Origin: Quercus robur
Taxonomy: Eukaryota > Streptophyta > Magnoliopsida > Fagales > Fagaceae
NCBI RefSeq assembly: GCF_932294415.1
Contig: NC_065535.1
Coordinates: 68,937,362-69,001,361 of the forward strand
Direction of reading: 5' to 3'
DNA length: 64,000 nt
Shown: positions 4,629-63,962 of the stretch, one piece after another
Position numbering within the stretch: position 1 is the stretch's first letter
How the letters are laid out: every line of letters begins with the position of its first letter
Notes under the pieces: model-generated
The model's input: only the letters and a program-made list of their open reading frames with translations
Database searches by the model: none
Told to the model about the DNA's origin: nothing
Translations under genes and position numbers: made by a program

Positions 4629-6612
4629 AGTATTATTGTATTATGATAATACTTGTTGCACAAACTTGAAATCATGTTTTTAATTCACATTTCCAGTTGT
4701 TTGTATACATGTGTGTTCGTATACAATAATATGTAACAATCACAGCTATTAATATCAACTATTAGCTCATATTTTTAGTTGTTTGTACACCTGTATGTCC
4801 ATATACAATAATATGTAACAATCACGGCTATTAATGCCGGACAAAATGGATAATGTTGTTCACAAACCGTCCACACCACACCTCCAAAAGCCATCTACCA
4901 AGAAAATGAAACCTTAAGAAGAAAGGTAGGTAGTAGTTACTTGAGTGATGGTGATATAAAAGCCATACTTATCAAATTAGTGAGCCACTTGCTTTAGGAC
5001 GACACTTCGCTCGTTCTTATCCCTACAAGATCATGTCAACCTCTCACTTTCGTGTTCTTAGAAGTTAAAGCAATTGGCTTAGATAGCCCTCTTTTTAACT
5101 TTCTTCTGTGTGTTGACAACTCGACTAATTAGAGTGTTCCAAGTTCCCAGTTCCAACCAAAGGAGTCTATTTTCTCAGTGGTACGGGACAACAATATCAC
5201 ATAGTCTTATCTACTAATTCCCAACATATTTCCAACTTGTCATTAATGGTTCTTTCTCTTATTATCATCATCTTATTTTGATTCCTTCATCCTAATCACT
5301 CTCTATGTGCATGGTTGCTGATGCAGATGGGCTTTTTTTTACTTGTTCAAGGACTTGGGTGATGGTGCTTATTCAAGATGATCGATTTGTTTGTTGACAG
5401 AAGATAGAGAGCACAGTTGAACATACCCAAGAAGGCATGTGTATGAGCAGTTTTGTGCTCTCTTTTCTTCCGTCAACACATTCTTCTACTGGTGAGTACA
5501 TCTCCTTGGATTTCTCTATCTTATTTTTTTAAGTACGACTAATTAAGGTAATATATATTTCTCACATATTCGCTTTCCCCGTTCTCCTTTTTTATGGGTG
5601 GAATTTCTTTTTCTCATTTGCAGTTGCACCACTTCTTCATATAGTAATACTTAACAAGCAATTAGTATTTTTAGACAGGATGCCCTTTTAACAAGCAATT
5701 AGTATTTTTAGACAGGATGCCCTTGGTTTTGGTTTCTTGGTAGGGTTTACTACATATTTTGTTTATTCTAGAGGAGTGCTTTTGACACCATCAAACTATA
5801 TATCAAATGGAGGAAACATAATTCGGAACATGAGGTACTTGATCTAATTGAAGACGCTGAAAATGCAAATTTAGCATTAGAGCCTTATAACTAGGTAACC
5901 AAATTAAAGAGCTCCGATAATTATCTCTTGCCACTTAATTAGTGAACAAATTAAAGATGATGAAAATCTTTGCTCTTAAGTCCTAAAAAGTTTTGTCACC
6001 AGTTTTCATAAAATCAAGGAGAATGCTTGTTAGAATGTTTAATATCTAGGTTTAAATAAATAATAGGAACTGCATGTGTTTATGGTTATTAGTTGTTGTC
6101 TTTTCATGATCAGCACGTAAAGGTGAAGTTGACCCATTATTTATTTGTTACTGAATTTAAAAATATTTTGGATATTTAGACGAAGGTAATCCATAACGTG
6201 TTTGTTTCAAACTTGATTTGAATGGTTACATATTGTCTCGATAAAAAATTAGCCATTTTGAAAAGTACCATCCATAGTGCTACTAAACTAAACTAAATAT
6301 TGTCTGGTATACCAATATACATATTTCACCATCTTACCTTTTAACTAGTCACTAGTGATGTATCAATATTTATAATACGAAATAAAAATATACATATTTT
6401 GAAAAAAAAAAAACCCATATTATATATATTTTTTAAGATGAAACAAATGTATACTATTTATATTTCTACCATGTTTAAATTTTTATGAAACATGGAACAA
6501 CAAAATACAACTTATTGACAAAATAAGAAAATAAGAAAATTTTCTAAGTTCCATCAAAACTCTTAGGGGAAAAAAAGTAATACAAAAATAACATTCTATA
6601 ACACAAAGTATT
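4629..6612. other. Intergenic stretch with two short tandem duplications
   Basis: About 4690-4835 holds two copies of an 80-odd-bp unit ending in 'ATACAATAATATGTAACAAT'. About 5653-5725 holds two near-perfect copies of a 38-bp unit containing AACAAGCAATTAGTATTTTT. A segment near 5390-5490 ends in GTGAGTAC and could pass for a small exon, but no protein family was recognised. Otherwise no gene. Confidence 0.5.
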
Positions 6613-7377
6613 TGTAGGGACACGATTCTCAAACGGCCCAACGATGACGTTGGGCTCGCACGTGAAGGATCCCTCACAATAAGATTTGTAGAGAGTGGGC
6701 TTGAAAGGCTAGCGTTTGGTCACAGGGCGTTGGTCCAAACCGGACTTCAGGGAAACTCAGATAAGAAAAGGCTTCAGCCTGGATATCCAAGCCCTACAAC
6801 TTTGTAACTTAAGGGATTGGACTCCTCGGATCATGTCCGAGGAGCACTAATGTCTTTCTCCGGTTACCCGGCGGTGGGTTTTTAGTGGTGGTGTACATAT
6901 ATTGTCCGGTCATTCTCATCCCTGGAGTTTTTCCCAGGAAGTGAGATGGGGGATCCCCACTTCGTTACCTTATGTTTCCTTTTATATTATCCTGCGTTTG
7001 CTGTCCTTCGTCCACGTGTAGGGTTAACTTTTCCAGGACTGACATTTGTCCCGTCAGTCTAATCCCAGAATTGGTGGGGATGGTAGATAAAGCCTAAGAA
7101 TCCGGTTCTGTTAGGTGTATAGTCTTATCTGGGAAGGGTAATAAGGGTAACTTTCCCAAGATATTTTAGATCTTCTTACGGATTTGTTCTTATAGCTCTC
7201 TTTTACCCCTTTTGTCAAGGGAGCTTTAGGCTTGACGAGGACTAAACTGTCCTCGGCTGCATATCTGGGCCATCCTCGGCCTTATACTTTTAAGCTTGGG
7301 CCATAACTTTTTTCAGCTTGGGCCTGCGGGCTCCCCATGAGCAAGTGGGCCTGGCCCATAAACTATTGGGCCCCACA
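6613..7377 (-). repeat. LTR (left copy; 3' LTR in element orientation)
   Basis: It begins TGTAGGGACACGATT and ends GGGCCCCACA on the plus strand, with TG...CA termini. A hairpin CTCCTCGGA-TCATG-TCCGAGGAG lies at 6822-6844. Confidence 0.92.
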
Positions 7378-9840: not shown

Positions 9841-10119
9841 TTGGCAACACTACTTTGTGAATGGGTGTGCTCTATGTGTGTGTTTCTTCAAGAATATTTA
9901 GAGCAAGATACCTTGAAACATAATCTAACTAACTCTAATTTACCAATACTACCAGGCATTATATCGATAATTCATAGTAAATCAAACTTAGGAAACTAAC
10001 CGGGGTAACAGTTGAATATTCTGTGATAAGCGCGTGAATACCGTCCAAGACTGATAATCTCTAAATAATCCATCCGAGCAGTCGACTGGGAAGCAGGGAA
10101 CTCCGATTGTGCTTCTGTG

Positions 10120-11173
10120 TACTTGGTTTCCCCATAGGCTTGAGTCCGAGGACCATGCAAGGCCTTGGTTCCGTCCAAAACTTATGGTTTTTCTTTTGTG
10201 TACTTGGTTTCCCCATAGGCTTGAGTCCGAGGACCATGCAAGGTCTTGGTTCTGTCCAAAACTTGTGGTTTTTCTTTTATGTACTTGGTTTCCCCATAGG
10301 CTTGAGTCCGAGGACCATGCAAGGCCTTGGTTCTGTCCAAAACTTGTGGTTTTTCTTTTGTGTACTTGGTTTCCCCATAGGCTTGGGTCCGAGGACCATA
10401 CAAGGCCTTGGTTCTGTCCAAAACTTGTGGTTTTTCTTTTGTGTACTTGGTTTCCCCATAGGCTTGGGTCCGAGGACCATACAAGGCCTTGGTTCTGTCC
10501 AAAACTTGTAAGATATCTTTTTTGTACTTGGTTTCCCCATAGGCTTGGGTCCGAGGACCATACAAGGCCTTGGTTCTGTCCAAAACTTGTAAGATATCTT
10601 TTTTGTACTTGGTTTCCCCATAGGCTTGGGTCCGAGGACCATACAAGGCCTTGGTTTTGTCCAAAACTTGTGGTTTTTCTTTTGTGTACTTGGTTTCCCC
10701 ATAGGCTTGGGTCCGAGGACCATACAAGGCTTTGGTTCTGTCCAAAAACTTGTAAGATATCTTTTTTGTACTTGGTTTCCCCATAGGCTTGGGTCCGAGG
10801 ACCATACAAGGCCTTGGTTCTGTCCAAAACTTGTAAGATATCTTTTTTGTACTTGGTTTCCCCATAGGCTTGGGTCCGAGGACCATACAAGGCCTTGGTT
10901 CTGTCCAAAACTTGTAAGATATCTTTTTTGTACTTGGTTTCCCCATAGGCTTGGGTCCGAGGACCATACAAGGCCTTGGTTCTGTCCAAAACTTGTGGTT
11001 TTTCTTTTGTGTACTTGGTTTCCCCATAGGCTTGGGTCCGAGGACCATACAAGGCCTTGGTTCTGTCCAAAACTTGTAAGATATCTTTTTTTTACTTGGT
11101 TTCCCTATAGGCTTGGGTCCGAGGACCATACAAGGCCTTGGTTCTGTCCAAAACTTGTAAGATATCTTTTTAA
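10120..11173. repeat. Tandem array of 13 units of 81 bp
   Basis: Units start at 10120, 10201, 10282, 10363, 10444, 10525, 10606, 10687, 10769, 10850, 10931, 11012 and 11093. Twelve spacings are 81 bp except one of 82. Each contains TACTTGGTTTCCCCATAGGC and TCCGAGGACCAT. Two subtypes differ in the tail: TGTGGTTTTTCTTTTGTG (A) or TGTAAGATATCTTTTTT (B), in the order A A A A B B A B B B A B B. Because 81 is divisible by three, long frames of 27-residue repeats stay open on both strands; these are not called as genes. Confidence 0.95.
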
Positions 11174-11432
11174 GTAATTTTTTCTCTATACTTATTTATT
11201 TTTCGAAGGTTAACCCCTAGGCCAGGGAGGGGAGAGTTGGCTTGAGGCCGGAAGCCCCTAGAGTTGCCCGCGCCGTTAGCAGTGCAAGGCGTAGCCCCTA
11301 GCAGAAGCTTATGTCAGAGTAAAAACTGCACGTCGCCGGAGATGGGAAAAACTCGCGAATCTCTGCTTGCTAGAGAGTTGACTCATGCGCCACCCGTGCC
11401 AACGCGCAAGCCTTCCCACAGACGGCGCCAAT
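11174..11432 (-). other. 5' leader of the retrotransposon with primer-binding site
   Basis: GC-richer DNA between the array and the right LTR. Reading on the minus strand, the primer-binding site starts just after the LTR (plus-strand positions about 11413-11431). Confidence 0.7.
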
Positions 11433-12197
11433 TGTAGGGACACGATTCTCAAACGGCCCAACGATGACGTTGGGCTCGCACATGAAGGATCCCTCACAAT
11501 AAGATTTGTAGAGAGTGGGCTTGAAAGGCTAGCGTTTGGTCACAGGACGTTGGTCCAAACCGGACTTCAGGGAAACTCAGATAAGAAAAGGCTTCAACCT
11601 GGATATCCAAGCCCTACAACTTTGTAACTTGAGGGATTGGACTCCTCGGATCATGTCCGAGGAGCACTAATGTCTTTCTTCGGTTACCCGGCGGTGGGTT
11701 TTTAGTGGTGGTGTACATATATTGTCCAGTCATTCTCATCCCTGGAGTTTTTCCCAGGAAGTGAGATGGGGGATCCCCACTTCGTTACCTTATGTTTCCT
11801 TTTATATTATCCTGCGTTTGCTGTCCTTCGTCCACGTGTAGGGTTAACTTTTCCAGGACTGACATTTGTCCCGTCAGTCTAATCCCAGAATTGGTGGGGA
11901 TGGTAGATAAAGCCTAAGAATCCGGTTCTGTTAGGTGTATAGTCTTATCTGGGAAGGGTAATAAGGGTAACTTTCCCAAGATATTTTAGATCTTCTTACG
12001 GATTTGTTCTTATAGCTCTCTTTTACCCCTTTTGTCAAGGGAGCTTTAGGCTTGCCGAGGACTAAACCGTCCTCGGCTGCATATCTGGGCCATCCTCGGC
12101 CTTATACTTTTAAGCTTGGGCCATAACTTTTTTCAGCTTGTGCCTGCGGGCTCCCCATGAGCAAGTGGGCCTGGCCCATAAACTATTGGGCCCCACA
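11433..12197 (-). repeat. LTR (right copy; 5' LTR in element orientation)
   Basis: Same length (765 bp) and termini as the left copy. It is flanked on the right by TTATT, the probable target duplication. Confidence 0.92.
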
Positions 12198-34617: not shown

Positions 34618-36546
34618 ATGTCTCGTCTTTCTCTTTTGCTCCTTATCTTCATCTACATTCTAACCCCAAGTTTTGTTTTCTCATCACCAGTACAAGACCC
34701 AGATCTTGTTGTACATGAAGTACATAGGTACGTAAGAATAAGATCCACATTATTATGTTACATTTACATATATCTCATACTATAATTCATGCTCTACGTA
34801 AGTAAAGATTAATGTGACATTTTTTTGTTTGTTAATAGGAGCATCAATGCCTCTAGGAGGAACTTGGGATATTTATCTTGTGGAACAGGCAACCCAATTG
34901 ATGATTGTTGGCGTTGTGACCCCAATTGGGACAAGAATCGCCAGAGATTAGCTGATTGTGCCATTGGTTTTGGTAAGAATGCAATTGGAGGAAGAAATGG
35001 CCACATCTACGTGGTCACTGACTCTAGTGATGATGATGCCGTGAACCCAAAACCGGGTACTCTACGACATGCCGTAATACAAGATGAACCCTTGTGGATT
35101 ATCTTCAAAAGGGACATGGTAATTAAGCTTAAGCAAGAGCTAGTGATGAACTCTTTCAAGACCATTGATGGTAGGGGTGCTAGTGTTCACATTGCTGGAG
35201 GGCCATGCATTACCATACATCATGTCACTAATATCATCATCCATGGCATCAATATTCATGATTGTAAGCAAGGAGGCAATGCTGACATAAGAGACTCCCC
35301 TCATCACTATGGCTGGTGGACTGTATCGGATGGTGATGGGGTGTCCATCTTTGGAGGGAAGCACATATGGGTGGATCATTGCTCATTGTCTAATTGCCAT
35401 GATGGTCTCATAGATGCCATCCATGGATCTACGGCCATCACCATCTCCAACAACTACATGACTCATCATGACAAGGTCATGCTTTTAGGCCACAGTGATT
35501 CCTTCACACAAGATAAAGACATGCAAGTCACTGTAGCCTTTAATCATTTTGGAGAAGGGCTAGTGCAAAGAATGCCAAGGTAGGTAACTCATGTTCAAAA
35601 TTGAAAAAAAATAAAATAATAACGGTGGCACACTTTAAGTCATCGATCTATAGATAAATAATTATTACGAATGCTATGAATATTACAAATGCTATTACAT
35701 AAATCTCTCAAATTAACAAATCAACTTTTAAATATTTATATTCATTCATGTTAGATCGTAAAGTTTTGTAATAAGTTTATATTCTTACATAAATAAATTA
35801 AATGTGATATTTAAGATGATACAAATTTAACTATAAAGACTATATTACTAATTACATAGAAGTAATTTAAATATTTATTTATCATGTTGTCAAAGTAGCA
35901 TTAATTACATTCAATTTTATGTTGGTTTGTAAGTTTTTTATAGTTGTTAAAATATAAATCCAATAAGCTTTAAACCTATTTTTAGTTATACTATACTCAT
36001 ATTACTTGTATAACACTCATATGTCTACTTATATAAGATAATCCATTATACAATTTTCACATATATTGTCTAGCTGCTTATATTGTAAAGATTTTTTCAG
36101 TCCTTACATTAGTAAAATTGTTAATTAATAACTTTACTGTTTCCATCCTTCAAAGTTGATAAAGGTGAATTTGAAAAATGTACAGGTGTAGACATGGGTA
36201 TTTTCATGTGGTGAACAATGACTACACTCACTGGGAAATGTATGCTATTGGAGGGAGTGCTGACCCTACTATCTACAGCCAAGGCAATAGATTTCTTGCA
36301 CCTGATGACAGGTCTAAGAAAGAGGTGACCAAGCACGAGATTGCATCAGAGAGTGAATGGAAGCACTGGAACTGGAGGTCCGAAGGGGATTTGCTGTTGA
36401 ACGGAGCATACTTCCGGCAGTCGGGAGCAGGTGCATCTTCTAGCTATGCTAGGGCATATAGCCTGAGTGCAAGACCATCTACTCTGGTGGGCTCAATGAC
36501 CATGACTGCTGGTTCACTTAATTGTAGGAAGGGTTCCCGCTGCTAA
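34618..36546 (+). CDS. Pectate lyase (polysaccharide lyase family 1)
   Basis: Three exons, 34618-34727, 34839-35579 and 36186-36546, with GT-AG introns splice in frame to 403 residues. The enzyme cleaves demethylated pectin by beta-elimination (EC 4.2.2.2) in the cell wall and needs calcium. Residues 1-22 ([20 protein letters not shown]...) form a signal peptide. The N-terminal lyase block includes [20 protein letters not shown] and [20 protein letters not shown]. The core contains the Ca-binding/catalytic segment [20 protein letters not shown], then [20 protein letters not shown] and [21 protein letters not shown] at 281-288 is the RxPxxR catalytic-arginine motif, spanning the exon 2/3 junction. 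[20 protein letters not shown] follows. All family motifs are present, so it looks functional. It resembles the pollen/style LAT56/59 group, but expression cannot be read from sequence. Confidence 0.96.
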
Positions 36547-43613: not shown

Positions 43614-44141
43614 TTAAAAGGCGAAGAAGCCAGCAACGATGGTAGCTCCGACAGCAACGGAGGCCTTAAGAGTAGTGGCGCCGCTGTCAGTGGTGGTGGT
43701 TGCAGGAGCTGGGGCCCCATCATCAGATGTAGGTCCTTCGGCGGGGCCACCTACTGGGGTTGCCACGCTCCCAGGGGCGGGGGGAGATGAGACATCGTCG
43801 TCAGCGGGAGAAGCAGCAGGGGTAACGTCGTCATCATCATCATCACTGGGAGGAGGGGAGACGGGTGTGGTAGTAGGTGGGGTGGGAGGGGCAGGGGCAG
43901 ACCTAGGTGCCTGCGTGGGGGGGGAGGTGGAGGTGGAGGGGGGGTTAGTGGGAGCAGGGGTGGAGGTAGGAGGAGGAGAGACGGGGACGGGGGCTGCAGG
44001 TGAAGATGATGGAGTGGTAGGCGGGGATTGCGGCGTAGGCGAGACGGTGGGGGAGGTACTAGGAGGTCCATCATCTTGAGCTGCTACAAAACCAGCAGCC
44101 ACAAGGAAAATGAGAGCAAGAACAATCACTTGACGTGCCAT
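43614..44141 (-). CDS. Classical arabinogalactan protein (GPI-anchored type)
   Basis: The single-exon frame encodes 175 residues. Residues 1-21 form a signal peptide (MARQVIVLALIFLVAAGFVA). The middle is Pro/Ala/Ser/Thr-rich with many SP, TP, AP and SPPP pairs, the substrate for prolyl hydroxylation and type II arabinogalactan addition. An acidic run of six Asp lies near residue 100. The C-terminus (DSGATTLKASVAVGATIVAG then FFAF) fits a GPI-anchor signal: small residues followed by a hydrophobic tail. Such proteins sit on the outer plasma membrane and in the wall, with roles in growth and signalling. The minus-strand TATA-like TATATAT at about 44284 and 44222 precedes the ATG at 44141. The AGP call is by composition; the subclass is not fixed. 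Confidence 0.9.
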   Translation of the reverse strand: MARQVIVLALIFLVAAGFVAAQDDGPPSTSPTVSPTPQSPPTTPSSSPAAPVPVSPPPTSTPAPTNPPSTSTSPPTQAPRSAPAPPTPPTTTPVSPPPSDDDDDDVTPAASPADDDVSSPPAPGSVATPVGGPAEGPTSDDGAPAPATTTTDSGATTLKASVAVGATIVAGFFAF

Positions 44142-44814
44142 GTTGATTGTTTTTTATTTATTTATTTGTGGACGTAATAGTAGTAGATTAGGGATTCTTG
44201 AGATTGCAGTACTTCTCTAAGATATATAGAGAAACACCGCACACCAAAGAATGAGATAAAAGGGTGGTGAGGAAGAGGAGAATATATAGGATTAAGGGTG
44301 GGAGGGAAGATAGGGAAATGTATGGAGGGGAAGAGAGAAGAAGGGTGTTTGTTCGGTTTAGACAGTTGGTTTGTTGGTTTTAGGGTGAAGGAGAGGAGAG
44401 AGAGAGGAGGGGGGTGTCAGTGTTTGGGTGACCGGGTTTGGTGGCCTTGTGACAACTAGCATGCGTCGTCTTCTTTTCTTAGAATGAGACTTTTTGTGGT
44501 TGGGGGAGTCTCAAACCAGTTGTAACTTTTATATACAGCACGTACACAAATATAATTCCAGGTTGGAGATCTTAATTAATTGGAATTAATGACACAAACT
44601 TGAAAAGGATGTTCAAGTTTTGTATATAAATTAAATTACAGACTTACATAATGAATGAGTTGGAAAATATTGATTTGTATTTCAATTGAATTCCTTTTTC
44701 TCTTTCTCTCAGTATCTGACTTTATGAAGATAATATTAAATAAATAATGACAACTGGTTATTTAAATAAAATAGAATGTAAAATAAATAATATAACTTAA
44801 TAGTTTTTGAAAAG

Positions 44815-48646: not shown

Positions 48647-50995
48647 ATGGAGGAGGAACCCATCCCGGAACCCGGATCCGGACCCTTCTCCTCCGCCTCC
48701 AACGGCGGTAGATCCATAGAGGAATGCCAATCCATGATCCAAAGAAGTCTTCGAAGTAATTTTTCAAAAACCCTCTCTATTTTTTGTTGAATACAAACTT
48801 ATTAGGGTTTAGGGTTTTTGGAACTTTCACCATTTCATTTCCTTTTCCTACTGATTCTGAGCTTCCAAACAGGGAATAGTGATAGAAACGACTTCATTTC
48901 ATGTGGGTTTTTTGTTTTTTTGTTTTTGTTTTTGGTGATAGTTCCAATGGTGAAGTTTCTGAGGGAGCATTTGGAGAAATCTGGGTGTGTAGTTGGGGAC
49001 AAGTTCATCAGGGCCGCCCGTTGTGACAAGCAAATCAGTGGCGGTTACGTTCGCGGCGAAGGGGTATTCATAATTTATTCAATTGTATTTGGTCTTTCTT
49101 TGGTTTTTTGTTGTTATCAAAGTTGGAGCTTTTGCATTTATACATTGGAATTTAGTAATTTTGTAATTGAAATTTTTGCTTCAATTTGTAGTTGGGATTT
49201 TATGAAGTTATAGTATTGTTTTTTGAATGTTTTTTTTTATTGAGTTTAGTCCAAGAATGGCATTGTGTTATGATTATGTTATGTTAAAGTCAGTGTGTAC
49301 ATGCCTGAAGTGAATATTTGAACATTGTATGAATAAGTGTTATATATCTATCTATGATTGGTGGGAAAGTCTATGATAGACTAATTCTCTCTTTTTTTTG
49401 GTTTGTTGGGGTTCTGTGCACGTGTGTGTGTGTGTGTGTGTGTTTTAGATTATGGTTTGTAGTAATCACATGAACATTCAAGACGAGGTGGACCAAGTGG
49501 TGATACATGAGCTAATTCACGCGTATGATGACTGCCGTGCTAGAAACTTGGACTGGGCTAACTGTGCTCACCATGCTTGCAGTGAGGTGTGTGCCAGTGT
49601 GGTGGAACTTTTTTAATCCTCATGTTGTTTTTTCTTTCAATGAAAGAATGTGTTTCTATTGTCGATAAACAGATTCGGGCCGGTCATCTAAGTGGTGATT
49701 GCCACTACAAGCGGGAATTTCTGCGGGGTTATATGAAGCTACGAGGCCATGAACAAGTGAGCTTCCCCCACTTTACTTTACTCTACTCTTATCCTGTCTT
49801 TACAATCTGATAGCATTGAGTGGTCTCTTTTCAACTGATTAGCAGTCTTTTTTAATTTGGAAGTCTGCAGAAGACCAAAAAAATTCAGTTTGTAATTTGT
49901 AACTGAAAAAGAGAGAGCATAAACTTTTATGTACATGGGGACTATTCAGCAAAATTAAGTCTCTTGGATTTTGCAGTTACCAATTACAAATAACAGGGAT
50001 GCCGCTCCTTTTTGAATGAGAATGCTACTGACAGCAGTATGCTAAATCTGAACCATATGAGATGCTCACATACTCTGTGACAGCACAAAGATTCATGACA
50101 AATGGCCAAGTTCCCCTTACATTACATAAAGTCAACAGTGATATCATATCTTCTAGAGTACATGATTGTGTTCTGCTAGGAGACTAACTAAAATATTGGG
50201 TAGAGCTTAAAATCTGTATTGCATGTTTGCTTACAGGACTGAGACTTTGGTAGAATTGTAAAATGAGTTCTGGAATCTTAAATTTCAGTCCCCACCCTAG
50301 TATAAAAGTAGTTTTATTAAGGTTATCTTTTTCTTATCAGGAAACCATTCTGTGAGCTGAAGAATTCAGCAATGATAATGTAACTACTTTACTTCGGAGA
50401 ATGACATAGGCTAATTTGAAAGTAGCCTGAATTACTGCTGCATTCGATGATAAGAAGGAATTCCTCATGTTATTGTTAATATGTTAGTAAAAAATTTCAT
50501 TCCCTACCTATTTAAGGGTAATGGACCTTAATGATTACTCTGCATACAGTTGAGGATCATATTACATTCCTCATAATCTCCCCTCCCCCCCCCCCCCCCC
50601 TGCGCATGTGCGGGCGTGGGCGGGTGTGTGTGCCTGTGTGCACAGGTGCTCATGTTGTATGTTACATAGAAAATTGCAAGTCATTTATAATGGTTGGTCG
50701 ATGGTCAACTAGGTGTATGTACCATCTAGCTTAAATTATGCCCAATTCATTTCTTGCCCATTTGCATGACAAATGCAATACTCTTTATGCTATAGTGTCA
50801 TTTAGGCATTTTTTGTTATGTGATTAATTCATTTATGGGTTTTCATTTTGACATTTGAAGGAATGTGTGAGAAGAAGAGTCATGAAGTCGGTGATTGCTA
50901 ACCCTTACTGCTCAGAAGCAGCTGCAAAGGATGCCATGGAAGCTGTCTGGGATGTTTGTTACAATGATACACAGCCCTTTGACAGAGCTCCCTGA
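48647..50995 (+). CDS. ATP23: ATP23-like mitochondrial inner-membrane metalloprotease (peptidase M76)
   Basis: Five exons, 48647-48755, 48942-49063, 49449-49586, 49673-49756 and 50861-50995, join in frame to 195 residues, the usual length for plant ATP23. Yeast Atp23 processes Atp6 and helps assemble the F0 part of ATP synthase in the intermembrane space; plant members are often labelled Ku70-binding (KUB3) proteins. Exon 1 gives SIEECQSMIQRSLR, exon 2 gives PMVKFLREHLEKSG and VGDKFIRAARCDKQISGGYV, and exon 3 holds the zinc motif HELIHAYD (residues 97-104, HExxH). Exon 4 gives IRAGHLSGDCHYKREFLRGY, exon 5 ECVRRRVMKSV and PYCSEAAAKDAMEAVWDVCY. Eleven cysteines fit the cysteine-rich, Mia40-dependent fold. 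The ATG at 48647 is chosen because the frame upstream has no ATG. Confidence 0.96.
49757..50860 (+). other. Fourth intron of ATP23
   Basis: A 1.1-kb intron with a long C run (about 50584-50600) followed by a GC-rich CGCATGTGCGGGCGTGGGCG stretch and a GT-rich tract. The 67-residue frame across it is not coding. Confidence 0.8.
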
Positions 50996-51675
50996 AACAT
51001 GCTGATCACTACTTGCCAATGCCAAACCAGCTGTCCCTTCCAGTTTTCTTGTAGGAATGGTGTTGTAGCAGACTCTGGCTTTGAAGCGAGTAATATGCCC
51101 TTATTTTTGAGTTGACATGACTTAAGTCAATCAGAAAGCTCATTTTATTTAGATTCTTTCTCCATTTTCTCTGAGATATAACTGCATAAAGAGAATTTTA
51201 CATTTTTGAATGTTATACATTATTGTACACCAATGATTGATGCTTTCTCAGAGACAAATTCAAATTCAAAGAATAAGAATCCCTTTATTAGTTGTGCCTC
51301 TTTCAATCAGAAGAAGTATGTATTTTTGTTATAATGCTGATCGAATGCTTCTGTCATTAGAGGAATGCAATTTATGATGATTGGAATGTGAGTACTGAGC
51401 ATGTTTTGCTGGAATTGACTCCTTAAGAAAAATGCAAATTGTAAACCTTTCAGTTATTTGCAATTGTGCTCATGTTTGAAACCCTCGTTTGAAACCATCT
51501 TATGCTTTGCATAATTAAACTGATCTGATGAAATAGAATTGTGTGTGTGGAATGCATATTTCAAAGCCTTTTGAAATGACAACTGCCTTGCCAAGGAAGT
51601 CCAAATCTGGAAGCAAATTCAGTTGATAGGCAAGAACAAAGTTGGCCAACTTCATTGAAATGGTTCTGTTATAAC

Positions 51676-52056
51676 AGTGAGACACCAAGAAGAAAAGCTC
51701 CAGTCAGAAATGCTAAGATAGACATGATTGCTGCAGCTTTGAACAATTTGCTGACATTGGTTTCAGATGGTGTTTTCTGCAGATCTTCTTTAAACACATC
51801 TTTGTGCACACCTCTGATATGCATTGTCAGTCATTAACTCTAATTCAAAACAATTATACAGATGAGAGGTACGAAGAAAAGCTTCAGGCATAAATTCTAA
51901 GACATGATAGCTACAGCTTTGAACAATTTGCTGATATTGGTTTCAAATCATGTTATTTGCAGATCTTCTATAAACACATCTTTGTGCACACCTCTGATAT
52001 GCATTGTTAGTCATTTACTTTAATTCAAAATCATTCATATGGATGAGAGGTACGCA
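51676..52056. repeat. Tandem duplication of about 184 bp
   Basis: Two copies share AGATCTTCT, AAACACATCTTTGTGCACAC, CTCTGATATGCATTGT and GATGAGAGGTACG. Copies differ by scattered changes. It lies between ATP23 and the small peptide gene and may be part of that gene's upstream region. Confidence 0.8.
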
Positions 52057-52528
52057 TAAGCGATATGCACAGGAGATGTGTAAGTAACATTTTGTTCCTA
52101 TTTCTGAGGTTGCCAATTGAGCCACTTAGCTGACTGGCTGGTTGACCGGGTGAGCCTAGTCTTCAATCTTCTACAATGTAAACGGCTATAGTTTATTTGG
52201 AGATTGTGGACCATGTGGTCATATATCCTCATGACTTTATTCTTTTTGAGTATTATACTTGTAGAAAGAACAAAAAGAACCTGAACATGTTAGCCTATAC
52301 ACATTCTTCTTTTTAGATTTTCGTGTTAGCTAGATTTTTGTATGATGCATGTTGTCATTATTTAAATGGTTTTTTTTCCATCTTTCCTTCATTTTTATTC
52401 ATTAGTGGGTCCTTTTCCTACTCTTATCCTCTTGATAAAGGGCAGCCAGTTGCATGTTGCAGAGTTAGAAGTGTTTTGCATAGCATTTTAGATAGAGGTG
52501 GGAGGGATGAGCATGGAGAAGGTCTAAT

Positions 52529-52844
52529 ATGAAGGTGGGATTTCTTCTTAAGATGATCGTCTTTCTCTTCTTTCTCAGTAGATACCACACAGTTGCTATT
52601 AGACCACACGTCTCAGGTATAAATAGATTGCATTTACTGCATTGGCATTGGTTTTTTCAGTTGTATATGCATTTAAGCCGAGCACTAAATTGATTAGTTT
52701 GCAGGTGCGAGGGGGTTGTGGGATCAGCATCAGGAATTGGAAAGGAAACATGTAAATGTGCACGAGCCAGTCTCTCAGTGGTTGTCCGAGGACTATTCTC
52801 TACCTCACAGAAGGCGACCTGTGCACAATAAGCTGGACCCTTGA
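52529..52844 (+). CDS. Candidate RGF/GOLVEN (CLEL)-type secreted peptide precursor
   Basis: Two exons, 52529-52616 and 52705-52844, joined by an 88-bp GT-AG intron, give 75 residues. The C-terminus reads DYSLPHRRRPVHN and then KLDP. This fits the 13-residue root meristem growth factor pattern (DY at the start for tyrosine sulfation, Pro at 5, Pro at 10, HN at the end), preceded by acidic SE as tyrosyl-sulfotransferase likes. The middle (SGARGLWDQHQELERKHVNV) is polar and variable, as in such precursors. The N-terminus (MKVGFLLKMIVFLFFLS) resembles a signal peptide, but it is encoded by a pyrimidine-rich stretch ending CTCAG that could instead be an intron acceptor with the true first exon upstream. 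The downstream exon and splice phase (TCA-G/GT) are convincing; the start is not. Such peptides act on RGFR-type receptor kinases. Confidence 0.62.
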
Positions 52845-59500: not shown

Positions 59501-61647
59501 GCATTACATTACAGCATTTTGTATTCTTTGTAATATATATTCCTATTTCTATGTAATTACCGTTACAATCTACTAAACATGTCCTAAGGATAATATTGAC
59601 TTGGTTTATTTATTTTATTTTTAACTAAATTAATCCATTTGAAATAATTGATAGTTCATGGGTGCTATTGAAATTTTAAGTATAATTTAGAAACAAAATT
59701 GTATCTTGCAATTTCGTTTCTTTTAAAAATAGTCAATAAGTTACTAGATGCTTAATTCTTTGTGGCTAAGAAGTATTTAATGTTTTGTAAGATGCAAGCA
59801 ATATTACACTCACATAATGTGTAAGACTCGTGAGATCCACATGTTATAACTGTGATATTACATGCATTTAGAGTAATAGATATTATCTATTAACAACATC
59901 CTAATGTAAATGTCATAAATCAAACGCAAGAAAATAATGCTCATCAAACATTTCTTCATACCACATCGAAAGGGCATGTATTATATAAACTAGCTTGTGA
60001 TTTAAATATACATTAAGATACATAATATAATTTTTATATATATATATATATAATTTAAATATTATTGATAGTCATTTTTATATTTTTTTTAACTCTTTAA
60101 AAAGTCTTATAAAAATATTATTAGGTAAAAAAATGTAAATTGTCAATTTTTTAATTTTTTTTATGTTCATTAATTTTAAACTCTTTAGTTTTTGTACACA
60201 ATAACTTACTTGGATGAATATTTATGATATGGTCCCCACATTTTATTCCAAATTAAAAAATAAAACTCTTTTTAAAAATAAGTAATTTAGGACACATGGT
60301 GCAAAATTAGATTCAATCGTAGAATCTGATTAAATTTTTTCTAAGCTTTGCCTATATACACACACATAAAAGCTCCCTGACCAATTTTGAGTCACATCAT
60401 AAGTTGTGCTTGAAACATATGACTCAAAATCAATCTTTACACAGTCCTAGTATATCTTTCATTTATTTTCTATATAAATACATTAAAAATATTATTATAG
60501 TCAGTAAATATTTCAAGATTTTTTTTTAATTATTTATTTATTTAAAGTTATTTTATATATTTAACATAAAATTAAAATTTAATAAAAACTTGATGGTTTC
60601 AATGATATATTTTAAGATAATTTTATTATTCAATTTCAAACATTACTGATTTTTTTTATTTGATTTACATGTCTTTATTTTAATTAATTTATACAACGTA
60701 TGAACAACTAATGGATATTTACTTTTCTCTCTTTTAATGTATATTTTTATACTTTGTAGAAAACATTTTTGTACATTAAGAAAAAGAAAAAAAAAGGTTT
60801 TGCTACAAATATGTTTGGAGGCTATAACCACCGATAGAAAGATAACACGTGTATTATCATATGTAATGCACATGATTCATTTGGTTGGTTGGTTTAAGTG
60901 AGCCATATGTATCATACATGATAAGGACAAATGTAATCTTCCTATTATTGATTGGACAAAATTTAGGTGCAATACTTTAAGTGTTGTTTCTTAGGTTCTC
61001 CTCTTAAAATTTTGTCATGTGGTTACTTAACTAAAAAATACACTTCCATTTCATGAAAAAATTCCACATGATAGAATTTTAAGAGCAAAACTTAAGGAAT
61101 AGCACCTAAGTACTGTACTTAAGTCTTACCCTTATTGATTGGAGCCCAAAGCTCTAAACATTTAAAGCCAAACTTTGACTTAAAAAAATGATAAAATTTG
61201 GTTACAAACTTGGTTGTAACTAATGCCTATAGGCTATAACTCCTATTAAAAAAAATTAATATGACTATATATTTTGAAAATTTAGCCATTTGAGTATATA
61301 TTTTTATGTTCTTAATATATGTGTTAAATTTTATGATAATTAGATATTATTTATTATTTAATTTATAAATTTATTTTCTTTGCTTAATTAGAGAACTATA
61401 AAAATTTAAAATTTAAACATTTGATTAAAACATTACTATTGATATTTGATAGCCTCAAAATTTTGCAAAACACATTAACTATATGTTGAACTACAAAACT
61501 GTCTTTTTATGGTTGCTAATTGATCCCCCCTTACTTGCCACATATCCACACAACCATATTTGCATAAACATTAAAAAACATAGAAAAGATCGCCAGAGAT
61601 TGTTAACAGTGATACACGAGGCATAGTTTGTGACGAAAGTTGTGTTC
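59501..61647. other. Intergenic DNA and GPDH upstream region
   Basis: Strongly AT-rich with TATA-type runs near 60030-60051. No gene or clear element was recognised. The last 150 bp are less AT-rich and include the GPDH leader. Confidence 0.45.
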
Positions 61648-62416: not shown

Positions 62417-63962
62417 GAAATTCAGATGAAGTGAGGATGTGGGTCTTTGAGGAAATATTACCAAGTGGTGAGAAGCTCACAGATGTCATCAACTCTACCA
62501 ATGTAAACACTTTATAACCTGCATCACTTCATTATTATCTGTGTTTTTGCAATATTTCTACACGGTAATCTCTTGGTTTCTTTAACAGGAAAATGTGAAA
62601 TATCTCCCTGGTATTAAGCTTGGAAAAAATGTTGTTGCAGACCCAGACCTTGAAAATGCTGGTATGAGTTTCTTGTTTTTGCCGAGTGTCCTGTCTATCT
62701 TGTAATATTCATATGGTAGATTATACTTTTGGTCCCTGAAATTTGGGTTATGTTCAATTTTGGTCCTTCAAATTTAAAAGGTTTGGATTTGGTTCCTGAA
62801 ATTTCAAAAAGGAAATAATTTCATCCCTCCATCTATGAGCTCAGTTTGATTTTGGTTTCTAAAATAGGTGCTTGGTTTGACTTGGTCCCTAAAAAATGGG
62901 GTGCTTCAGCGTCCCATTAATCCTGTTAACTAAAAAATAGATGGAGAGGCCAAATTGTTCTCTTTTTGAAATTTCAAGCACCAAATATGAGGAACCAAAA
63001 TTGTACCTACACCAAATTTCAGGGAGGAAAAATATAATTTACCCTATGGTTCTCATGTGATCACCTGGTTTGTTGTTCTGATGGGGGTATTATCCATTAT
63101 GCAGTGAAGGATGCAAACATGTTGGTTTTTGTGACCCCACATCAATTTATGGAGGGAATATGTAGGAAGCTTGTTGGGAAAATAAATGGAGATGTGCAGG
63201 CTATTTCCCTCATCAAAGGGATGGAGGTCAAGATGGAAGGCCCATGCATGATCTCTTCTCTCATCTCTGAGCAATTAGGGATTAATTGTTGTGTCCTAAT
63301 GGGGGCCAACATTGCTAACGAGGTAATTAATAGGATTTTCCATCATTCTTCTTGGCAATTCAAGTGCTGGCTCATTTTCTAATACTAGAGGTTAATGTGC
63401 AGATTGCCACGGAGAAGTTTAGTGAAGCGACAGTTGGATACAGAGAGAACAGAGAAATTGCAGAGAAATGGGTTCAACTGTTTAGTACTCCCTATTTCTT
63501 AGTCACAGCTGTGAGTGCAATAGACACATTCAATTGATAAAAATCAATTTTGTAAATTACTTAGCAAGTAATATGAAGTACCATAATTCTAAATCATTCA
63601 CAAAAACCTTGACTTGAATAAAGGAATTGTCTTAGAGTGATTTATAGGAAGATTTAATACGGCAGAAACATAAAAAGTCAAACTGCCATTTTTTACGTGG
63701 GTTATGATTAGATGCACATCAAATCACTGTCTAAGACATGCTTTGTTCGTAATTTTTCATATGACATTATCAAATAGGTCCAAGATGTGGAAGGAGTTGA
63801 ACTATGTGGGACCCTGAAAAACGTTGTGGCCTTAGCAGCAGGTTAGTAGTACAATTTAGCTCTTTTTCTTCTCCTTTAAACAAATTTAATAAGTAATGAA
63901 GGAATTAATTCACTGATGGGACAGGTTTTGTGGATGGCTTGGAGATGGGGAATAATACAAAA
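61671..63962 (+). CDS. NAD-dependent glycerol-3-phosphate dehydrogenase, plastid-type (5' part)
   Basis: Seven exons are in the window: 61671-61995, 62426-62502, 62589-62661, 63105-63322, 63403-63510, 63778-63841 and 63925-63962. All have GT-AG junctions in frame, giving 301 residues; the rest lies beyond the right edge. The enzyme interconverts dihydroxyacetone phosphate and glycerol 3-phosphate, feeding glycerolipid synthesis. The NAD-binding fold shows VTIVGSGNWGSVASKLIAS (GSGNWG at 85-90), then DEVRMWVFEE and ENVKYLPGIKLGKNVVADPD. VTPHQFMEGI, ISLIKGMEV and VLMGANIANE follow, with VELCGTLKNVVALAAGFVDG carrying the catalytic-lysine region. It matches the Arabidopsis At5g40610 type rather than the cytosolic GPDHC type. 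Residues 1-41 are Ser/Arg-rich, fitting a transit peptide; a start at Met42 (61794) would give a cytosolic form. Confidence 0.95.
62717..63042. mobile_element. Foldback element in intron 3 of the GPDH gene
   Basis: The left end (ATTATACTTTTGGTCCCTGA) and the inverted right end (TTATATTTTTCCTCCCTGAA) match, both followed by AATTTGG and CAATTTTGG. It fills most of the 443-bp intron 62662-63104. The interior contains the 'TTGGTCCCT' phrase common in such plant elements. Confidence 0.7.

Follow-up and report, generated by a model that had tools for sequence, protein, structure and literature searches.

The window analyzed here, a stretch of oak DNA of 64,000 nucleotides, looks like plant nuclear DNA and contains several genes with Pfam matches in addition to a small predicted two-exon gene that is the subject of this report (table 1). 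The gene encoded upstream of the latter specifies an M76 peptidase, which we take to be the family of ATP23, and its product ends in AVWDVCYNDTQPFDRAP, directly followed by the stop codon. Because the Pfam match of the last M76 exon reaches the final position of the model and the gene stops at 50995, approximately 1.5 kb upstream, we rejected the possibility that exon 2 of the small gene is part of the M76 gene. The interval between the two genes contains a direct repeat of 136 nt (51720–51855 and 51900–52035; 90% identical, 180 bp apart), the first copy of which partly overlaps an open frame of the minus strand (51669–51830) with a hydrophobic end and weak, sub-threshold Pfam matches. Elsewhere in the window, the region 9988–11195 is composed of a tandemly repeated frame (LDRTKALYGPRTQAYGETKY and relatives) in which several frames of both strands are open, and the open reading frames at 6592–6807 and 11382–11627 form a pair that is near-identical by eye. 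An open minus-strand frame at 43614–44153 is rich in Pro, Ser, Thr, and Ala and has hydrophobic ends; it matches no Pfam model at E-values up to 0.1 and presumably resembles a classical arabinogalactan protein.

Table 1. Features of the small two-exon gene and of other genes in the window
Feature	Position	Strand	Remarks
HSP20	2385–2885	−	Pfam match
Pectate lyase	34813–35583	+	Pfam match
M76 peptidase gene	48806–50995	+	Pfam matches at 48806–49213 and in the last exon, 50870–50992
Exon 1, coding part	52529–52616	+	MKVGFLLKMIVFLFFLSRYHTVAIRPHVS plus one base of a split Gly codon; signal peptide-like start; least certain part
Intron, 88 bp, GT-AG	52617–52704	+	Phase 1; 33% GC, 40% T; predicted from sequence
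Exon 2, coding part with stop codon	52705–52844	+	(G)ARGLWDQHQELERKHVNVHEPVSQWLSEDYSLPHRRRPVHNKLDP, then stop
Predicted mature RGF/GLV peptide DYSLPHRRRPVHN	52791–52829	+	Tyr2 predicted to be sulfated, Pro10 candidate hydroxyproline, both from the family pattern
C-terminal tail KLDP, after HN	52830–52841	+	May be trimmed
Glycerol-3-phosphate dehydrogenase	63038–63382	+	Pfam match; weak N-terminal match at 61584–62084

Gene structure and family precedents

No long open reading frame marks the small gene: the stop-to-stop frames around its two exons comprise only 60 and 48 amino acids, in agreement with what the initial annotation had reported. The hidden two-exon model proposed there, with a short GT-AG intron that keeps the frame, also proved exact in its coordinates. 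The start codon (ATG) lies at 52529 and the stop codon (TGA) at 52842–52844; the donor reads CTCAG/GTATAA, with 52617 as the first intron base, and the acceptor reads TTTGCAG/GTGCG, with exon 2 beginning at 52705. The spliced coding sequence of 228 nt is in frame, contains no internal stop, and encodes a product of 75 amino acids (MKVGFLLKMIVFLFFLSRYHTVAIRPHVSGARGLWDQHQELERKHVNVHEPVSQWLSEDYSLPHRRRPVHNKLDP, followed by the stop codon) that has a hydrophobic start and a C-terminal end of the form EDYSLPHRRRPVHN-KLDP. The GC content of the coding part is 47% (41% in exon 1 and 51% in exon 2) versus 33% in the intron. A single, C-terminal peptide domain in a 75-residue precursor with one predicted intron corresponds to the architecture of the RGF family, and the predicted succession of a signal peptide exon, an intron, and an exon encoding a C-terminal peptide agrees with the structure described for CLEL/RGF genes.

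Several published descriptions bear on the less common traits of this model. The survey data cited from Fang et al. (PMC8708909) include introns in most RGF genes and proteins that range from 39 to 277 amino acids. For spruce, the CLEL passages of Strabala et al. (PMC4016512) report that none was found with a signal peptide and a CLEL domain in one continuous frame, and that the first exon of two predicted genes was located by a search for a signal peptide upstream; exon 1 of the oak gene had been located in the same way in the initial annotation. The same passages name a nonconserved tail (NCS2) for some CLEL proteins, lycophyte Group R members are described as carrying 9–18 residues beyond the peptide in a portion of PMC8329595, and the CLEL6 and CLEL9 peptides given in an excerpt of PMC7162652 have one residue after HN, with the endings HN-E and HN-R. 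The four residues that had been claimed beyond HN in the oak product are indeed present (KLDP; table 1) and, as far as these sequences indicate, residues after HN are not unusual for the family. The hidden frame, the intron, the arginine run, and the tail all have family precedents in PMC8329595, PMC8708909, PMC4016512, and PMC7162652 and in the RGF8 peptides. With the signal peptide and the hormone encoded in separate short exons, genes of this kind are readily overlooked.

The predicted peptide and its closest relatives

The 13-mer DYSLPHRRRPVHN contains all of the residues typical of the family, among them the D-Y, P5, P10, and final H-N pointed out in the initial annotation. It conforms to the rule for the C-terminal domain of 13–16 residues (D1, Y2, a proline in the second half, and usually H/N-N at the end). 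Group R is defined by central R/K residues in the relevant portion of PMC8329595 (Furumizu and Sawa), and the peptide likewise conforms to the rule for this group (consecutive R/K at positions 7–8 and, in seed plants, H12), with R7-R8-R9 and H12.

A Pfam search with the spliced protein returned a sole match, PF21529 "GLV1-2" (E = 0.011, 17.0 bits), which falls short of the curated cut-off (28.1 bits); residues 19–71 align with positions 15–69 of the 69-position model, and the last model position falls at HN. The profile search of exon 2 that the initial annotation had proposed also found GLV1-2 (E = 0.015, 16.7 bits), but again with a score under the curated cut-off, and gave one further weak and unrelated match (DUF4287, E = 0.12). 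Exon 1 alone had no Pfam match, the product deprived of the peptide and tail lost the GLV1-2 match and matched nothing, and none of five shuffled products matched GLV1-2. The profile evidence is below the curated threshold, rests mostly on exon 2, and is suggestive of the family.

Over 13 residues, the oak peptide shares 10 positions with Brassica napus RGF8 (DYSKFRRRRPVHN), 9 with Arabidopsis RGF8/GLV6/CLEL2 (At2g03830, DYRTFRRRRPVHN), 8 each with RGF6/GLV1/CLEL6 (DYPQPHRKPPIHN) and the eudicot peptide DYAQPHRKPPIHN, 7 each with RGF1/GLV11/CLEL8 (DYSNPGHHPPRHN) and RGF5, 6 each with RGF7, RGF9, RGF10, and CLE18, 5 with RGF2, and 4 with RGF3. In the peptide listings from which they are taken, both RGF8 peptides have in common with it D1-Y2, R7-R8-R9, and P10-V11-H12-N13, whereas the oak peptide has L4-P5-H6 where they have T/K-F-R. 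The oak precursor is also shorter than that of Arabidopsis RGF8 (75 vs. 123 amino acids, the latter as listed), and its KLDP tail may be a further difference. The RGF6/GLV1 and eudicot DYAQPHRKPPIHN peptides share D-Y, P5-H6-R7, P10, and H-N with the oak peptide, and the Pfam model GLV1-2 is named after GLV1 and GLV2; in contrast to the RGF6/GLV1 peptides, the oak peptide has R8-R9 in place of K-P, and the oak product lacks strict AtSBT6.1 sites such as RRLR or RRAL. Like the oak product, the CLEL6 peptide listed in PMC7162652 continues beyond HN, by one extra residue. The residues common to RGF1 and the oak peptide are D-Y-S, P5, P10, and H-N, but RGF1 is a Group H member (His at position 8) and the oak peptide has Arg there. 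Thus, the earlier assignment to an RGF1 type stands with respect to the RGF/GOLVEN family but not with respect to the nearest type, which is RGF8/RGF6 rather than RGF1. The initial annotation had also singled out the RRR run as notable; it is not, because Arabidopsis RGF8/GLV6 and B. napus RGF8 both carry it. Among the open-access papers searched, the peptide string RRRPVHN appears in three, all of which deal with RGF8/GLV6 peptides, and the string DYSLPHR in none.

Searches of prokaryote genomes and viral contigs gave 176 and 24 pattern stretches, respectively, none of which was confirmed by tblastn; the absence of prokaryotic or viral relatives is expected for a plant gene and does not count against it. 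A search of solved structures with the peptide region gave no matches, and a scan for bacterial promoters and terminators, which is inapplicable to plant DNA, gave results near chance level.

Alternative explanations of the locus

Short patterns lend some credence to a chance resemblance in noncoding DNA: the bare motif DY-x7-P-x-H-N, which occurs once in the six frames of the window, occurs twice in total over 60 dinucleotide-preserving shuffled windows, and a degenerate DNA pattern with at most one mismatch allowed, which matches the window once (0 mismatches; 0.30 expected), has at least one match in 25 of 100 shuffles. The DNA pattern is a weaker test, and its outcome less striking, than a position matrix built from nine 13-residue Arabidopsis RGF peptides in a table of PMC11534595 (RGF4, GLV8, and GLV9, which are longer than 13 residues, and CLE18 were left out; CIF/TWS1 and other rows represent other families). 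With this matrix, DYSLPHRRRPVHN scores 32.6 and the training peptides themselves score 32.0–42.2; no other site in the window exceeds 13.4, and the best site per shuffle averages 9.8, with a maximum of 20.6 (n = 60). The full matrix score therefore exceeds the best of 60 shuffles by 12 bits, the Pfam profile points to the same family, and the Arg-rich signature of RGF8 is reproduced. Given the matrix score and the shuffles we reject a chance motif, which we consider extremely unlikely. A lookalike of the peptide, NSETPRRKAPVRN (51673–51711, plus strand, 1.1 kb upstream), was rejected as a second copy, with a score of 8.2 that is lower than the mean best score of the shuffles; its frame (51580–51837) has no Pfam match, and a tblastn search of the window with the 75-residue product recovered nothing but the two exons of the gene itself at E < 0.1.

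Exon 1 is the less secure part of the model. The first exon inferred in the initial annotation is in phase and signal peptide-like but lacks homology support, and comparable exons occur in the background. The maximal 9-residue hydropathy of the product, for which the signal peptide was judged from hydropathy and by eye, is 2.87; among the 427 open ATG frames that the window contains, 19, including that of exon 1 itself, reach or surpass this value. Of 223 background acceptor positions that were sampled and are followed by an open frame, 9 have an equally hydrophobic in-phase upstream exon, and an exon at least as hydrophobic with an intron of at most 150 bp exists at 5 of the 223. A genuine RGF/GLV gene with a different first exon or donor (e.g., donor 52578 with an intron of 127 bp, or a more distant upstream exon) draws on an enumeration of in-phase models: with introns of 60–600 bp and first exons no longer than 200 bp, four models lead to acceptor 52705, and three of these have their start within one and the same hydrophobic exon. 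The Pfam signal, moreover, is for the most part independent of exon 1, and the product of the 127-bp intron model still matches GLV1-2, more weakly (E = 0.058). However, hydrophobicity is lower in the fourth model, which starts at ATG 52366 (1.51 vs. 2.87), and by eye the donor of the 52616/52705 model is the best (CAG/GTATAA), with T-V-A as a plausible signal peptide end; we regard a different first exon or donor as quite unlikely. The preferred donor agrees only partly with what we take to be the plant consensus. The short precursor of 75 amino acids and the lack of homology support for exon 1 could also be read as signs of a recently dead RGF copy in which the frame is still kept. Such a copy would be expected to have lost some of its features, whereas the frame, stop codon, splice signals, family-typical residues, and signal peptide-like exon are all intact, and we consider a pseudogene very unlikely.

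Based on these sequence comparisons, the locus is very probably a small plant gene with two exons that encodes an RGF/GLV/CLEL precursor, predicted to be secreted, which belongs to the arginine-rich Group R and is similar to RGF8/GLV6. The RGF/GOLVEN call made in the initial annotation is upheld by the complete set of residues in the 13-mer, by GLV1-2 as the sole (sub-threshold) Pfam match, and by the family-like gene structure. Within this well-known family the gene is unexceptional, and no concept is changed by it; it provides the annotation of this plant with a probable RGF8/GLV6-like hormone gene and a simple peptide that is testable on roots.

Possible maturation and action

By analogy with known members of the family, exon 1 would supply a signal peptide that directs the precursor into the ER, and exon 2 would supply a short variable prodomain followed by the C-terminal hormone. 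Tyr2 of the DY pair would be sulfated by TPST in the Golgi and Pro10 hydroxylated, an Asp-dependent subtilase (SBT3.8-like) would cut before DY, the KLDP tail would possibly be trimmed, and the 13-mer may then be perceived by RGI/RGFR receptor kinases and influence root growth. The CLEL route, as set out in parts of PMC7162652, comprises signal peptide removal, a cut in the prodomain by SBT6.1, TPST sulfation and Pro hydroxylation in the Golgi, and finally the action of SBT3.8-like subtilases, which cleave before DY in an Asp-dependent manner. In the oak product, the D59-Y60 pair retains the Asp to which the same parts of this source link cleavage and, through a citation, sulfation.

The 75-residue product contains no match to the strict AtSBT6.1 motif (R-(R/K)-X-L or R-(R/K)-L-X), a point against the proposed assignment; as far as seen, this motif does not define the family as a whole. 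Under the looser human S1P rule (R-X-(L/V/I)-X), R32-G-L-W qualifies, as does R67-P-V-H inside the hormone. We view as rather doubtful the idea that the gene encodes a minimal Group R precursor, with a very short prodomain devoid of a strict AtSBT6.1 site and the hormone followed by KLDP, that matures without an SBT6.1 step. If such a precursor were expressed and active, its route would skip SBT6.1 pre-processing, and C-terminal trimming may precede the engagement of the receptor RxR motif by the terminal Asn. According to a section of PMC6749341, the receptor uses its RxR motif to contact the terminal Asn of RGF1, and binding is stronger when the peptide is sulfated; removal of KLDP would therefore be expected. 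Applied mature CLEL6 and CLEL9 peptides are nevertheless active in the experiments cited from PMC7162652, despite their listed endings HN-E and HN-R, which speaks against a strict need for trimming, so that the trimming of KLDP is a step that we infer.

A short upstream open reading frame encoding MSMEKV is located at 52507–52527 on the plus strand, and it stops one base 5′ of the RGF start codon. This upstream frame could modulate translation if the transcript begins upstream of it.
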